Source: an uncultured Bacteroidales bacterium
GTDB lineage: Bacteria; Bacteroidota; Bacteroidia; Bacteroidales; UBA932
Length of the DNA stretch: 64,000 bases
Assembly: GCA_947630665.1 (NCBI GenBank)
Contig: CANRID010000002.1
Location: 1 to 64,000, forward strand
Reading direction: 5' to 3'
Shown here: positions 34,329 through 41,950 of the stretch, in pieces
Numbering within the stretch: position 1 is the stretch's first letter
Layout of the letters: every line of letters starts with the position of its first letter
Notes under the pieces: model-generated
What the model was told of the DNA's origin: nothing
The model's input: the letters and a program-made list of their open reading frames with translations, nothing else
Databases searched by the model: none
Translations under genes and position numbers: made by a program

Positions 34329-36020
34329 TTACCAGCTGAGTTCCGGGGAATCTTCATTCGGTTTCAGCGGCGTAGGATTGTTTACGCATTCCGTGTTATA
34401 GTTGGTTTCTGTCTGCACGATACAGAAATCCATCCAGTTAGGGTAGGTGTTTCCGTCATTGGTGCCGTAAATGCCGTAGTTCCACCGGTATCCCGACGGG
34501 TGGTTCGTTTGGGCATAACTGCGGATGATCCCTTTGTCGAGACGTTTGATGTCGAATGTGGCGAATCCTTCACCCCACAGTTCCACGCGGCGCTGCCACC
34601 ACACCTCGTTCTGGAAATCCTTGGCATAACTGCTCCCATAATTCTCGGAAGTATGTTTCCCGTATTCGTATTTCGGATCACGGGTCTTGGCAAAAGCGGT
34701 CAGCAGGTTTATTCCATTGGCTTCGTTCTGCATTCCGGCGGCTTCCGCCTCGATAAGCATCATCTCTTCGGCACGCATCAGCGGCACGGCTACGGTAAAA
34801 GCCTTGTACTGATCGTTATGTTCGCCGTCTTTCGGACGGAACTTGACTTCCAGGCCTCCGACCATCTGCGATGTTGTTGCTCCGGCCGTGGACAAAATAC
34901 CTTCCGGTGCATCGGAATAGGCAGACAGGGCTTCCAGCGCCTCGTTCTGTTCCATATTGTCGATATTAAAATCGATGAAGACTTTTTTGCGGAAATCGCT
35001 TTCGGGGATGCTCTGGTAAAGATGATAGTCAATGTGTTTCGGGGTGCCGTAATTGGCTGCGTATCCGCACCCCGAAGCGCTTACCTCGATGATCATCTGA
35101 GAACCCCAGCTTGAATCCCCGTCGTTTCTTATGATATTCGGATCATTCGACTTGTACGTCAATCCGAATATCCAACTGTTGTTCGGAGTATTGAATCCGG
35201 TGCTCCGGGAGGTGAACTGTTCCTCATTCATGGCGGTGTATCCCGAGTATGCCATTCTTGCATATTTCTCGGCCTCCGGCCAATTCTCCATTGTGAGATA
35301 AGCCCGCGCCTTCAATCCATAGACCACGGAAAGATCGGGCGTATATACATCGCTGCGCTTGTAGTCGGCGAGATAGGTTTCGGCTTTGTTCAGATCTTCG
35401 AGTATATGCCCCCACATCACCTCATTAGTGGCGCGGGGATTGGAAGCCAGCTCGGCCAGGGAGGTGGTCTCCAGAATCAGAGGAACTGTAATGCCCGCAG
35501 GATCTTTGGCATAAGTCTTCGTGGCGAACATTCTCGCCAGATCCATGTAGAACATCGCACGCATGGCATAAGCGATACCGACACCGGTTTTCTTGTCATC
35601 GGAAGGCTCTTCGCCCGCTAAGGAAAGCACCGTATTGCAACTTTTTATCCATCCGTAGTAGTATGTCCACGGCAGCTGCGATACCGCATATTGGGGTCCC
35701 AGACCGGTTCCGCATCCGTACCATGTAGTGTACCACTCGTTGCCGTTATCCTCTATAACGATATCCTGCCCCATAACATCGCGCATCAGGAAGAATGACG
35801 GGTAGCCGAAATCATAGGGAGTATAGCTGCTCCCTGAATAAGTGAACGAACCCGCCAGCGAACTGGTAATGGCCGAGACAAAATTGTCGAACGATCCGGG
35901 AGCGCTCCCGGCCTGATCTGCAGTAACGCTTGAAGACTGCGGGTCGATTTCCTTGATGCAACCGGACAACAGCATCGCACCGGCTGCGGTTATAAAGAAT
36001 ATTCTTGCAATATTTTTCAT
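34329..36020 (-). CDS. RagB/SusD family nutrient-uptake outer membrane lipoprotein
   Basis: 563 aa; lipoprotein signal AAGAMLLSGCIKEID; C-terminal WWQRRVELWGEGFATFDIKRL typical of SusD. Confidence 0.93.
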   Translation of the reverse strand: MKNIARIFFITAAGAMLLSGCIKEIDPQSSSVTADQAGSAPGSFDNFVSAITSSLAGSFTYSGSSYTPYDFGYPSFFLMRDVMGQDIVIEDNGNEWYTTWYGCGTGLGPQYAVSQLPWTYYYGWIKSCNTVLSLAGEEPSDDKKTGVGIAYAMRAMFYMDLARMFATKTYAKDPAGITVPLILETTSLAELASNPRATNEVMWGHILEDLNKAETYLADYKRSDVYTPDLSVVYGLKARAYLTMENWPEAEKYARMAYSGYTAMNEEQFTSRSTGFNTPNNSWIFGLTYKSNDPNIIRNDGDSSWGSQMIIEVSASGCGYAANYGTPKHIDYHLYQSIPESDFRKKVFIDFNIDNMEQNEALEALSAYSDAPEGILSTAGATTSQMVGGLEVKFRPKDGEHNDQYKAFTVAVPLMRAEEMMLIEAEAAGMQNEANGINLLTAFAKTRDPKYEYGKHTSENYGSSYAKDFQNEVWWQRRVELWGEGFATFDIKRLDKGIIRSYAQTNHPSGYRWNYGIYGTNDGNTYPNWMDFCIVQTETNYNTECVNNPTPLKPNEDSPELSW

Positions 36021-36040: not shown

Positions 36041-39000
36041 TCAGAATGTTAATTGAATGCCACCCATAATGGTGCGTACCGGAGAATATACGTTGACGGA
36101 TGCGTTTGCGCTATATGCATATCTTGGATCAAGTCCTTTTCTGGCAGACCAGAAACAGAGATTCTCGCCCGTGGCGTAAATGCGCAGCTTACCGCCGCCA
36201 AGACTCGACATCAGTTTCTTCGGCAAGGTATAGCCCACGGTGAAAGACTGGAAATTGAGATATCTCGCACTGGTCAGCCAACGGTCGGAGACTGCATTCG
36301 TATATTGGTCGCTATAATAGAAACGGGGAATCGTGCTGGAGGTGTTTTCGGGCGACCATGACTTGAGTACATCCACATGTACCGCGTTCCCCGCACCGCC
36401 TGCCGATGCGATATTCGACATCAGACTAGCATACATGTTGTCGTATATCTTGCCGCCCAGCTGATAGTCGAAAGACAGCGACAAGTCGAATCCATAGATG
36501 GAAAGGGAAGTCCCGAATCCTCCATAAGCGACAGGAAGTCCGCTTCCCTGCTCGTACTTGGTGGCTTCGTTGGGATTGGTGGTGGTACGGTCGTGGCTTT
36601 TACCCGGACGGTTGGTGACGCCCTCTCCCAGATTGGCATCCACCCAATAGGTAGCCTCGCCCTGCTCATTCACACCGGCGTATTCGGCACAGAACCGGCT
36701 GTAAAGCGGGCCGCCTTCTTTGTACCACATGCTGTTTTCCGTAAATCCGCCCAACTCTGTAATTTTGGCCTCCGGCAGTTTCAGTATTTTGTCTTTATTA
36801 TGAGAGATGTTGAACATCAAGCTCCAATCTACGTTCTTCGTGCGGATAACGGTCCCCTGCAGGCCTAACTCGACTCCCGAGTTGCGGATATCACCTATAT
36901 TGCCGTAATATCCGCGGGAGCCGGCGCTCTCCGGAACAGATAGCCAGAAGAGCAGATCGGTGGTCTTCTTGTTGTAATAATCGATGCTGCCGGAGAGACG
37001 ATTGTCGAAAAGGCTGAACTCGATACCTGCGTTCATATTCGTGGTGGTCTCCCAAGTTATTTCGGGATTCCCGATACGGTAGAACGATGCCGACATTTGC
37101 ACATCCGAAGCGGCGCTCAGTGAGTACAGGTCGGTATAAGCCCAGTCGCCGATATTATCGTTACCTTGCTGACCGATGGAGAATTTGAATTTCAAATAGT
37201 CTATCCATCTGACATGGAAAAACGGTTCCTTGTCCATCATCCACGCACCTCCGACCGACCAGAAGTTGCCCCAACGGTTGTCTTTGGCAAAGCGGGAAGA
37301 TGCATCGAGACGGTAGCTTGCAGACGCGAAGTATTTTTCTTTATAATTATACTGCAGATTGGCGAAGTAGCCCTCCACGTTATACTCGGTAGTGTAGGAG
37401 GATGAGGTTACTTTCTTGGCGGCTCCGTTCAGTTCCTGAATATCCGGACTGAAAACTCCCTGTCCGGTGGCCGACAGGTAAGTGGTTTTCTGATCATAAT
37501 ATTCATGCCCCAGCATAAAGCTCACATTGTGTCCTCCAAACTGGTCGAAATACTTGAGGGTCTGCACATGATTTTGGCGTACTCCATCGTTTTGCGATTT
37601 GAGAAGCTCGCCGTTCACGCTGACTTTCGGTCCGTAAAGTGCGTTATCGTAAGTCGATGCATTGGTATGTCCCCAGTCCACGCTGCTTGTGGCGTTGAAT
37701 TTCAGGAAATCCGTCAGGTTGACATCCACGGTAAACGTTCCGGTAAGTTTGTTGCCTTTGGAAGTGTTATCATTATAGCGGTTGGATCCTAACGGGTTGT
37801 TTGTCGCCATGAAAGCACGGCTCAATCCCGGATAATTGCTTGCCGCTACGCCGTAGTCATACTGAGGATTACCGTTCTCGTCAATCCGGATTTGCGGATT
37901 ACCGTTCTTGTCCAGTACGCGTACATAGATAGGATAAATAGGAGCGATTTTCGATGTATAATACATCAGATTTGTAGAGTTGAATGATGTATTCATGTTT
38001 GGAGTGGATTCGGTTACGGTATTGGTATATCCGACATTCGCTCCCATTTTCAGCCATTTCCTTGCCTGGTAATCGGCTTTGACTCGCGCGGTGATCCGCT
38101 GGAATCCAGAGTATTCGATGATTCCGTCATCATCCAGGTAACCGATGCTCGCATAAAACGACCCCTTGTCCATGGAACCGTTGATGCTCACGTTGTATTC
38201 CTGACGGAACGCATTGCTGTAGGCGGCATCGCGCCAGTTGTCGTTAATGAGGTAATATGTTTCGCCGTTGGCCTCATAACTGCGACCCAGCACTGCATTG
38301 GGGTTCAGTCTGCCGTCCGTGCCGATAAGGTACTGTCCGTCGGGAACAGTATAGATGTTGTATCCTAAATGCTGCAACATCAATTTATTCGCATTTGCAT
38401 TGGCAGTTTCCATGTTTTGCTCCTGCATGTAGTGATAGTAGTTGTAATACTGTCCGTATATTGTTTCGTAATACCGGCCCGGGTCCGTTATGGTTTCGTA
38501 GTCCTGCACGGCCCGGCTGTTGGCCCCCCATTTTATATCCACGTTTATCTGGGCTTTCGAATCTTTCCCGTTCTTGGTCGTAACGAGGATAACACCGGCT
38601 GCACCCCGGGCTCCGTATAATGCGGCTGAAGCGGCATCCTTCAGTACGGTAACCGATTCGATGTCTTCTTGCGGGATATTACTCAGCGAGGCGCTGTAAG
38701 GCGCGCCGTCCACGATAATCAACGGATCGGTTTTGGCGTACATCGAAGCGATACCGCGGATCATGATAGATCCTTGACCGGCACCGGGGGCACCTGAACC
38801 GCCACGGAGTTGAAGACCGGGAGTCGTGCCCACCAAAGCGTTCACTACGTTAGTCGTGATATGTTTGGACAACTCTTTCGTGTCCACGACAGTGGCGCTT
38901 CCCGTAAATGAAGATTTTTTCTGCGTACCGAAGGCGACAACCATGACCCCTTCCAACGCCTGGGCATCGACCTTCAAGACCACCCTTATGGGTTCAGACT

Positions 39001-39265
39001 TGATGTCTGCCTCCTGGGTTTGCATCCCGATAAAGCTGATTACCAAAGTGGTTGACGAACTTGGCACTCCATCGAGAACGAACTTCCCGTCGGCATCTGT
39101 CGCCGTTGCGATTGTTGTACCCTTTACTACAACGGACGCTCCGATGACAGGCCCGTTATCTTCTTCCGAAATGACAATACCTGTAACCCTTTTAAGGGTT
39201 TGGGCTGTCACCATGCCTGTTCCTATCAATAGGAAAGCCAATAAAAAAATCAATTTCTTTTTCAT
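36041..39265 (-). CDS. SusC/RagA family TonB-dependent outer membrane receptor
   Basis: 1074 aa; signal peptide, VTGIVISEEDNGPVIGASVVVKGTTIATATDADGKF, plug DIESVTVLKDAASAALYGARGAAGVILVTTKNG. Confidence 0.96.
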   Translation of the reverse strand: MKKKLIFLLAFLLIGTGMVTAQTLKRVTGIVISEEDNGPVIGASVVVKGTTIATATDADGKFVLDGVPSSSTTLVISFIGMQTQEADIKSEPIRVVLKVDAQALEGVMVVAFGTQKKSSFTGSATVVDTKELSKHITTNVVNALVGTTPGLQLRGGSGAPGAGQGSIMIRGIASMYAKTDPLIIVDGAPYSASLSNIPQEDIESVTVLKDAASAALYGARGAAGVILVTTKNGKDSKAQINVDIKWGANSRAVQDYETITDPGRYYETIYGQYYNYYHYMQEQNMETANANANKLMLQHLGYNIYTVPDGQYLIGTDGRLNPNAVLGRSYEANGETYYLINDNWRDAAYSNAFRQEYNVSINGSMDKGSFYASIGYLDDDGIIEYSGFQRITARVKADYQARKWLKMGANVGYTNTVTESTPNMNTSFNSTNLMYYTSKIAPIYPIYVRVLDKNGNPQIRIDENGNPQYDYGVAASNYPGLSRAFMATNNPLGSNRYNDNTSKGNKLTGTFTVDVNLTDFLKFNATSSVDWGHTNASTYDNALYGPKVSVNGELLKSQNDGVRQNHVQTLKYFDQFGGHNVSFMLGHEYYDQKTTYLSATGQGVFSPDIQELNGAAKKVTSSSYTTEYNVEGYFANLQYNYKEKYFASASYRLDASSRFAKDNRWGNFWSVGGAWMMDKEPFFHVRWIDYLKFKFSIGQQGNDNIGDWAYTDLYSLSAASDVQMSASFYRIGNPEITWETTTNMNAGIEFSLFDNRLSGSIDYYNKKTTDLLFWLSVPESAGSRGYYGNIGDIRNSGVELGLQGTVIRTKNVDWSLMFNISHNKDKILKLPEAKITELGGFTENSMWYKEGGPLYSRFCAEYAGVNEQGEATYWVDANLGEGVTNRPGKSHDRTTTNPNEATKYEQGSGLPVAYGGFGTSLSIYGFDLSLSFDYQLGGKIYDNMYASLMSNIASAGGAGNAVHVDVLKSWSPENTSSTIPRFYYSDQYTNAVSDRWLTSARYLNFQSFTVGYTLPKKLMSSLGGGKLRIYATGENLCFWSARKGLDPRYAYSANASVNVYSPVRTIMGGIQLTF

Positions 39266-39357
39266 GAGACCATCATTTAGGTAGTTAGTTAGATTAAAAA
39301 ATTCTTTAAAATCTTTTTTTCATTTCAAATAAAGATTTCTTTGGTGATATGTACTGC

Positions 39358-39377
39358 ATATCCGTTTCTTCGCAAGA
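39358..39377 (+). repeat. Left inverted repeat (20 bp) of putative invertible promoter element
   Basis: ATATCCGTTTCTTCGCAAGA; perfect reverse complement of 39542-39561. Confidence 0.9.
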
Positions 39378-39541
39378 AAAGGATGATTTATATAATTATA
39401 TGATAAACAGTACTATAAGATATGCTTGCTGTTTGTTTGAATAACACAAGACATCTTTTTGAATAACAGTCATGAAAATTTTTATAGTCTGAAGATTAGC
39501 AATTCAGAAATTTTGCTTATTTTTGAGACATCATATCTTTC
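39378..39541. promoter_or_regulatory. Putative invertible promoter segment (164 bp) upstream of susC
   Basis: Segment bounded by perfect 20-bp inverted repeats; contains plus-strand promoter-like motifs (TTTG-N18-TCTTTTTG at 39432-39461; TATTTTTG at 39518-39525) pointing away from susC; no CAAA (minus-strand TTTG) in the interior. Confidence 0.7.
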
Positions 39542-39561
39542 TCTTGCGAAGAAACGGATAT
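39542..39561 (-). repeat. Right inverted repeat (20 bp) of putative invertible promoter element
   Basis: Plus strand TCTTGCGAAGAAACGGATAT; perfect reverse complement of 39358-39377. Confidence 0.9.
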
Positions 39562-39750
39562 TTTTATTTGCCAGAGACTATTGATTATGTATAATTCCAA
39601 TGATTTTGATCTTTGATCCTTGGGGTATGATATGGCAATGTCGGTCTGCAACGATGTATTTTACACTTGAACAGTCTCTATTATATACTCTTCTGCAAGA
39701 TTCTTGCTTCGAGTAGAAAGAATGTCCTGCCCGCGACGCTGCGGAGCGGG

Positions 39751-40764
39751 TTAGTTTTTGAGCAGCAAAACGATGAACGTTACATACAGAATCAGGAAAA
39801 TGATGCCTTCCGGCCGGTCGATCCGTTTCTTTTGGAAGGTAAAGGCCGTTACGAAGATCAGCAGAGAGGAAAGCAACAGCGTACCCAGATCCAGAACTCC
39901 TATGTTTTCCATGCCTAAGGGACGTATGACGGCGCTGCCGCCCAGGATCAGAAAAATGTTGGCGATATTGGATCCGAGGATATTGCCAAGCGCCAGGTCC
40001 GTTTTCTTTTTATAGGCAGCCACAAGGCTGGAAGCCAGTTCCGGGAGGGAGGTGCCTCCGGCCATCAGCGTGATGGCGATTACGGCCTCCGAGATTCCTA
40101 TTTTCCGGGCGATAGAACTGGCGGAGCCGATGAAAAGATCTCCCCCGTAGATCAGGCCTGCCAGTCCTCCGATAATCATCAAGGCAGATACCCCTGTTTT
40201 TCTATGTTTTTCTCCGGATTTGTCCGGGATCTCCGCGAGGCTTTCGGCAGGGGCGGGCCTGTCATAATTATCGCCGGCGGTTTCGGCAGGAGAAACTGCC
40301 TTGGCCGAATATAGGGTATAGACCATGAAGACCGTAAAAAACAGGAGCAGGAGAATCCCGTCCGTGCGGGAAATAAGGCTTTCCGAAGTACCGTCGATAT
40401 ATTTGTCCAGACCTATTACGCACAGTACGGCAGCGGCAAGAAATCCGAAAGGGATGTCTTTTCTGATATTATTGCCTGTCAGTCCTATCGGGAAAATGGT
40501 GGCCGTAAGGCCCAGGATGACCAGCGTATTGAATATATTGGAACCTATTGCGTTTCCTACGGCCATGTCCGTATTGCCTTTGACGGCCGATATGAAACTG
40601 ACCGCCATTTCCGGAGCGGAGGTCCCGATGGCTACGATGGTGATTCCCACGATGAAATCGGAAAGCCCGAATTTTCTGGCGATCGAACTCGAACCGTCCA
40701 CTAAGTAATTGGCGCCTGCTAATATAAGGGCGAGTCCCGCTATCAGAATGAATATATCATACAT
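39751..40764 (-). CDS. Calcium/sodium antiporter (CaCA family, YrbG-like)
   Basis: 337 aa; two repeats with VAIGTSAPEMAVSFISAVKGNTDMAVGNAIGSNIFN and MAGGTSLPELASSLVAAYKKKTDLALGNILGSNIAN. Confidence 0.95.
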   Translation of the reverse strand: MYDIFILIAGLALILAGANYLVDGSSSIARKFGLSDFIVGITIVAIGTSAPEMAVSFISAVKGNTDMAVGNAIGSNIFNTLVILGLTATIFPIGLTGNNIRKDIPFGFLAAAVLCVIGLDKYIDGTSESLISRTDGILLLLFFTVFMVYTLYSAKAVSPAETAGDNYDRPAPAESLAEIPDKSGEKHRKTGVSALMIIGGLAGLIYGGDLFIGSASSIARKIGISEAVIAITLMAGGTSLPELASSLVAAYKKKTDLALGNILGSNIANIFLILGGSAVIRPLGMENIGVLDLGTLLLSSLLIFVTAFTFQKKRIDRPEGIIFLILYVTFIVLLLKN

Positions 40765-40948: not shown

Positions 40949-41950
40949 ATGTTGGGTGAAACTGTTTCGGTGCTTGTGGCCCTTTCCTGGACCCTTTGCG
41001 CTTTGTTTTTCGAATATGCGGGGAAACGGATCGGTTCTACCAATCTCAATCTGATCCGGTTGCTTTTCGCTTTTGTCATGTTAGGCGTTACGCTTTTTAT
41101 TATGGGCGGAAGTTTCTTTCCCCGGTTCGCGGATATACGTACCTGGGGATGGATGGGACTGTCGGGAATGGTAGGATTCGTATTGGGTGATTATTTCCTG
41201 TTTTATTCCTATACGCTTATTACCGCGCGGTTCTCGCAACTTATCATGACGCTGGCCCCTCCATTCGCCGCCCTGTCGGGATGGGTATTATTGGAAGAAA
41301 GGCTTTCGTTTCCGGCCATCTTAGGAATGGCCGTTACTTTGGCAGGCATCGCCATTTCCATTTATTCCAAAGGTCCCGCCGAATCTGCAGAGACTCCTGA
41401 GAGCGGAACCGGAAGCGGAACGGGGCATCTCCGGCTGGCTCTTCCTTTGAAAGGCGTCATCTTTGCCGTGATAGGGGCTTTCGGCCAGGGAGTGGGGATC
41501 GTACTGAGCAAGGAGGGAATGATGACCTATCAGGAAGCGCTGAATATTTCTGCGGGCGTAGCGGGAGATGCTGCTTCAACGGCGGCCGGGAATCCGTTAT
41601 ACGTCCCTTTTGCAGCCACCCAAATGAGGATCATTACGGGAATTTTTATTTATATCGGGCTGATAGCCTTTACGGCGGGGCTGAAACAGTTCTTCCGTGC
41701 ATGGAAAAACATAAAAGGGATGCGGGCGGCTCTTTACGGTTCCGTTTTCGGACCTTTTCTGGGCGTTTCCCTCTCCCTTATGGCGGTTCGTTATACCAAT
41801 TCGGCCATAGCTTCCACAATCATGGCTACGGTACCTATTCTGATTCTGATTCCCGACAAATTCATTTTCAAAAGGCAGGTAACGCCCCGTCAGGTGTTGG
41901 GAGCCGTAATCAGCGTGGCAGGAGTAGCCATGTTTTTTATAAAGTTCTGA
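40949..41950 (+). CDS. DMT/EamA family transporter
   Basis: 333 aa, ~10 hydrophobic segments, EamA-like repeat with GDYFLFYSYTLITARFSQLIMTLAPPFAALSGWVLLEERLS. Confidence 0.88.
   Translation: MLGETVSVLVALSWTLCALFFEYAGKRIGSTNLNLIRLLFAFVMLGVTLFIMGGSFFPRFADIRTWGWMGLSGMVGFVLGDYFLFYSYTLITARFSQLIMTLAPPFAALSGWVLLEERLSFPAILGMAVTLAGIAISIYSKGPAESAETPESGTGSGTGHLRLALPLKGVIFAVIGAFGQGVGIVLSKEGMMTYQEALNISAGVAGDAASTAAGNPLYVPFAATQMRIITGIFIYIGLIAFTAGLKQFFRAWKNIKGMRAALYGSVFGPFLGVSLSLMAVRYTNSAIASTIMATVPILILIPDKFIFKRQVTPRQVLGAVISVAGVAMFFIKF

Follow-up and report, generated by a model that had tools for sequence, protein, structure and literature searches.

A predicted invertible promoter upstream of a susC-susD pair in an uncultured Bacteroidales bacterium

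Promoter inversion is well described in Bacteroides, where capsules and surface proteins as well as SusCD and restriction systems are subject to it (PMC12632263, PMC4747536, PMC8375218). In B. fragilis, the promoter segments IVp-I and IVp-II are switched by the tyrosine recombinase BF2766 (Tsr19), which acts both locally and in trans, and the OFF state of IVp-I is the prevalent one (PMC4747536). The Mpi-type capsule promoters PVR7-12 of B. intestinalis measure 183-186 bp; transcription start has been mapped in or at their proximal repeat, and most of the loci are mostly OFF in the wild type (PMC8375218). Phase variation of SusC/SusD in B. fragilis has been ascribed to Tsr0667 shufflons, as related in PMC4747536 with reference to Nakayama-Imaohji 2009.

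Here we describe a 204-bp element located upstream of a susC-susD pair in a 64,000-nucleotide stretch of DNA from an uncultured Bacteroidales bacterium (the window), which is in all likelihood an invertible promoter switching this pair ON and OFF, inversion at this locus being predicted from the sequence. The element resembles IVp-I and IVp-II in its short promoter segment, inverted repeats, TAnnTTTG motif and surface-related targets, and in the tyrosine recombinase predicted to act on it in trans, these being the features compared; as to the genes controlled, IVp-I and IVp-II serve an EPS operon and a lipoprotein cluster (PMC4747536), and the window element would serve susCD. The Mpi-type promoters are of nearly equal size and start transcription where we predict it for the window element, but their repeat (ARACGTTCGTN / GTTCGTTTAA) and their serine invertase both have no match in the window. 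The Tsr0667 shufflons, as far as they are related in the citing paper, share with the window the SusC/SusD outer-membrane genes and, as predicted here, a tyrosine recombinase; they exchange genes by multiple inversions, whereas a simple promoter inversion is predicted here. No repeats with the window-type core were found in the literature searched.

The locus looks like a new and well-formed case of a bacterial bet-hedging switch of known kind, placed before a nutrient-uptake pair, and adds a predicted phase-variable SusCD transporter in a small-genome Bacteroidales lineage. Pairs of this type import nutrients, and when they vary, this has consequences for diet use and immune recognition, and possibly for the sensitivity to phages.

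Inverted repeat and predicted promoter upstream of susC

The susC gene and its susD-like partner (Table 1) apparently form a two-gene unit. The original prediction had placed a perfect 20-bp inverted repeat around 164 bp, 92 bp upstream of this minus-strand susC, and all of this was borne out, with 92 nt lying between the left arm and the susC ATG; the arms moreover extend to 27 nt at 93% identity. When the window was simulated 30 times with a Markov model, the longest exact inverted repeat (spacing 20-600 bp) was mostly 12-14 bp and never exceeded 16 bp, and the runner-up in the real window was 14 bp long, leaving the pair described here as the strongest at close spacing. Each arm is near-palindromic with the core TCTT-CGC-AAGA; the half-site of the arm reads TTTCTT where CTCTT is usual, and the two arms have unlike inner half-sites.

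Table 1. Coordinates of the susC-susD pair and of the element upstream of it, in positions of the window
Feature	Position	Strand	Remarks
susD-like lipoprotein gene, susC partner	34329..36020	-	PF14322, PF07980; 66% identity with the L021 partner gene product
susC (SusC/RagA TonB-linked outer-membrane protein)	36041..39265	-	TIGR04056, 772 bits
Leader, element to susC start	39266..39357	-	no TAnnTTTG
Left arm, susC-proximal	39358..39384	+	39358-39377 exact; near-palindromic; core TCTTCGCAAGA at 39367-39377
Predicted invertible segment, 164 bp	39378..39541	.	inversion predicted
-7 promoter element TATTTTTG (TAnnTTTG)	39518..39525	+	16 nt from right core, facing away from susC; spacing as in 17/24 related elements
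Right arm, susC-distal	39535..39561	-	39542-39561 exact; core at 39542-39552

With up to 3 mismatches allowed, the arm sequence occurs in just these two places of the 2.24-Mb genome; it was not found in 38 other genomes of the same genus; the element DNA had no counterpart among 40 related genomes. Eight isolated matches of the arm 16-mer were obtained among viral contigs, none with an inverted repeat around it. The inverted ends of a 204-bp unit would also fit a MITE, a miniature non-autonomous transposon bounded by terminal inverted repeats, that has inserted before susC. This origin is extremely improbable given the single copy in the genome (again at up to 3 mismatches), the absence from the 38 congeneric genomes, the borders, at which no target-site duplication was seen, and the related elements, which share site and promoter spacing rather than interior.

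The repeats of the same genome were surveyed by pattern searches, in the stretches around recombinase and susC genes and at contig ends. No inverted repeat of comparable strength precedes the other susC genes on unbroken contigs of this genome or of the genus. Near the start of the window contig (58-82) there is a site-like sequence, TTCACTCTTACAAAGAGACAA, that contig C32 also has at its start, between flanks that have diverged; it belongs to a paralogous stretch.

The sole TAnnTTTG of the element, TATTTTTG, is a perfect match to the -7 consensus and stands at a distance of exactly 16 nt from the right core, a position with a probability of about 0.01 by chance; the base that follows it is A, not the Y of the longer consensus TANNTTTGY. 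No clear -33 TTTG was found upstream of TATTTTTG, and likewise none is conserved among 21 aligned elements. Within the segment, five TTTG are on the plus strand and the minus strand has none, in agreement with the earlier remark that the interior holds no CAAA for a minus-strand TTTG. The promoter-like motifs that had been proposed fared differently: TATTTTTG occupies the conserved place of the family described below, while TTTG-N18-TCTTTTTG (39432-39461) is present but was rejected as the promoter and stands outside the conserved design, since TCTTTTTG fails TAnnTTTG (C for A) and related elements have nothing comparable there. Matches to sigma-70 hexamers were set aside, that model being inapplicable to Bacteroidales promoters.

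Because the one TAnnTTTG faces away from susC and the stretch from the element to the ATG has none, the analysis supports a promoter assembled in the OFF orientation. The same orientation had been proposed in the original prediction, and it is the position of TATTTTTG relative to the right core, not the first of the proposed motifs, that argues for it. The motifs do read on the plus strand into a region lacking a plus-strand gene, as had been described: the right-hand neighbour (39751-40764) is on the minus strand and the next likely plus-strand gene begins at 40949. A scan for an intrinsic terminator of rightward OFF transcripts returned none, the hairpin at 39726-39750 (-15.8 kcal/mol, z -1.6) being not significant. 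Inversion in silico turns the promoter towards susC, as anticipated, and puts TATTTTTG 128 nt upstream of the ATG. Once ON, the promoter would start transcription beside the susC-proximal arm, with a leader of about 120 nt ahead of susC; when OFF, it would fire rightward, away from the gene.

A site class shared among Bacteroidales

Two TCTTNNNAAGA cores spaced by about 150-180 bp were used as a search pattern, with the reversed pattern as a control. Such pairs occur three times in the genome that holds the window (the window element, C7:21725-21911 and C33:3165-3339), once in a Bacteroides genome and eight times in Bacteroidaceae bacterium IMSAGC_004, while the control gave zero matches in the same genomes. 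The wider comparison covered 393 Bacteroidales genomes and 53 pairs, two near-duplicate loci having been left out. The centre triplet was identical in both arms in 24 of the 53 pairs, against about one expected, and the window element, with CGC at both centres, is like the other matched-centre pairs. A TAnnTTTG located 14-18 nt inside one arm and reading outward, most commonly at 16 nt, was present in 17 of the 24 matched-centre pairs and in none of the 29 with different centres (Fisher p 1e-8; 5e-8 without the two elements of the window's own genome). These elements follow a common design, in which they share the site core, the place of the promoter and a core-to-core size of about 185 bp; their site and promoter spacing are alike and their interiors dissimilar. 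Both states occur, as judged with the direction of the adjoining gene: ON in L208, L211 and L216, and OFF in L141, L209, L210, L214, L215 and L184. The data support assignment of the window element to a recurring family of putative invertible promoters.

Crossover between two sites requires matching centres. The centre triplets vary between elements and match within each, and therefore fit crossover sites; together with established knowledge and the neighbouring genes, this leads us to infer that the TCTTNNNAAGA sites serve tyrosine recombinases. The same variation fits poorly with a fixed operator. Each arm is a dyad, and its predicted fold is a short hairpin (-7.7 kcal/mol, z -1.7), as would be expected if the arms acted as regulator operators or as RNA hairpins (an attenuator) in the susC leader instead of as recombination sites, but not all members of the family have the promoter in the same direction with respect to the gene, and Tsr genes lie beside many of them, which makes such a role very improbable.

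The resulting sequence rule, i.e., paired TCTTNNNAAGA cores with matching centres and, some 16 nt inward of one arm, a TAnnTTTG, detects switches and gives their ON or OFF state from an assembly alone.

Targets, candidate recombinases and signs of inversion

Elements of the family precede susC genes, a restriction-modification operon, DUF3575 genes and upxY-like regulators of polysaccharide loci, the matches to the latter scoring below NCBI's curated cut-off. In the genome of the window, the C33 element precedes a gene for a DUF4988 protein, and the C7 element (L141:7726-7912, i.e., C7:21725-21911) lies in the OFF state with a Tsr gene on one side and a type II methyltransferase / type IIG restriction operon on the other, an arrangement that recurs in IMSAGC_004 (L209). 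Around the DUF4988 surface-protein gene, three copies of one leader-plus-arm stretch with CCCTCTCTTACCAAGAGAAG (L208:3163-3341 and the ends of C33, L350, and C20, L337) run into differing sequences, and multi-site shuffling is possible there. Another element, with TCTTATTAAGA cores, was found between groES/groEL and a glycan-type operon (L230:1501-1686) and recalls IVp-II of B. fragilis, which likewise adjoins groES/EL (PMC4747536).

Many of the elements adjoin a gene for a tyrosine recombinase of about 400 aa with the domains Arm-DNA-bind_5, Phage_int_SAM_5 and Phage_integrase, and no recombinase gene is adjacent to the window element. In the tree, the Tsrs encoded on C7 and C49 of the same genome fall inside the clade of element-neighbouring recombinases (support 98/99) and that of C28 just outside it. 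Because of this placement, and because the G429 element, which has the core TCTTCGCAAGA of the window element, stands beside a Tsr gene whose product shares 72% identity with the C49 Tsr, the C49 or C7 enzyme is the most likely candidate for acting in trans; such a Tsr-type site-specific recombinase would cross over within the core and flip the segment. An Mpi-type serine invertase could be considered in its place, as it switches many Bacteroides capsule promoters of about the size of the window element (PMC8375218, PMC4747536). Inversion by such an enzyme appears highly unlikely here: the arms lack the Mpi repeat (PMC8375218), PF00239 matches the genome just once, weakly and in a 225-aa frame, and it is tyrosine recombinases that neighbour sites of the TCTTNNNAAGA class.

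The ends of contigs offer a hint of inversion elsewhere in this genome. Before another susC, a related site of 18-19 bp stands in two inverted copies (TATCTCTTCCGTAGAGATA and the reverse complement of CATCTCTTCCGTAGAGATA) exactly at the end of C17 (46035-46053, L263) and the start of C47 (1-19, L264), and the contigs break precisely at the inner ends of both arms; with up to 2 mismatches allowed, this site was found nowhere else in the genome. As an 18-bp repeat alone is shorter than the usual assembly k-mers, the breaks were read as a trace of reads in mixed orientation, which suggests that the C17/C47 element may be actively inverting, with both orientations present in the sampled population. 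Over the whole assembly, site-like arms lie within 60 nt of the contig end at 7 of 116 ends, some of them within longer repeats, against 0.23 expected. One more complete element is situated at the start of contig C14 (L278:38-251), with CTCTCCGTAAGAG arms and a degenerate -7 motif, TACTTTTA.

In contrast to C17/C47, the contig of the window is unbroken at the element, and one orientation therefore probably dominates there. The unbroken contig would also be expected of a locked relic, a former promoter of the family whose sites have drifted or whose recombinase is gone, with susCD left OFF from it or otherwise served; the half-sites deviating from CTCTT/AAGAG and the missing adjacent Tsr gene point the same way. 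Against such a loss of function, the arms are still exactly identical over 20 bp, spacer included, and Tsrs of the right clade are present, among them the one 72% identical to the neighbour of an element with the TCTTCGCAAGA core, so that we regard a relic as unlikely and a functional invertible promoter as the preferred reading.

Related putative switches at other susC loci

The closest full-length homologue of the susC-susD pair belongs to Bacteroides sp. Marseille-P3684 (L021; 68% and 66% identical) and is likewise preceded by an element, of 181 bp and with related arms, that ends 57 bp before the susC match. Its -7 motif stands 16 nt from the core and faces away from the gene (OFF), as in the window, whereas the interior, the centre bases and the neighbouring genes differ and one core base is changed (TAGA). 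Since the neighbours differ, the switch and the gene pair appear to stay together and their surroundings do not. It can tentatively be proposed, as a possibility of rather low probability, that one Tsr site class switches the transporter of the window, restriction-modification (C7) and surface proteins (C33, C47), giving linked cell-to-cell variation in surface exposure and phage defence, and that the switch with its susCD is shared with Bacteroides as a unit.

Two further arrangements were observed at susC genes. In a Mediterranea MAG (L035), a perfect 28-bp palindromic repeat, TGCTCATTAAACGAACGTTTAATGAGCA, with an Mpi-like motif lies at -327 to -123 from the susC homologue and would represent the other inverton class, that of the Mpi type, before a related gene. 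In L067, a 135-bp inverted duplication of the susC start and leader, spanning -743 to +73 of susC, is suggestive of a susC shufflon.
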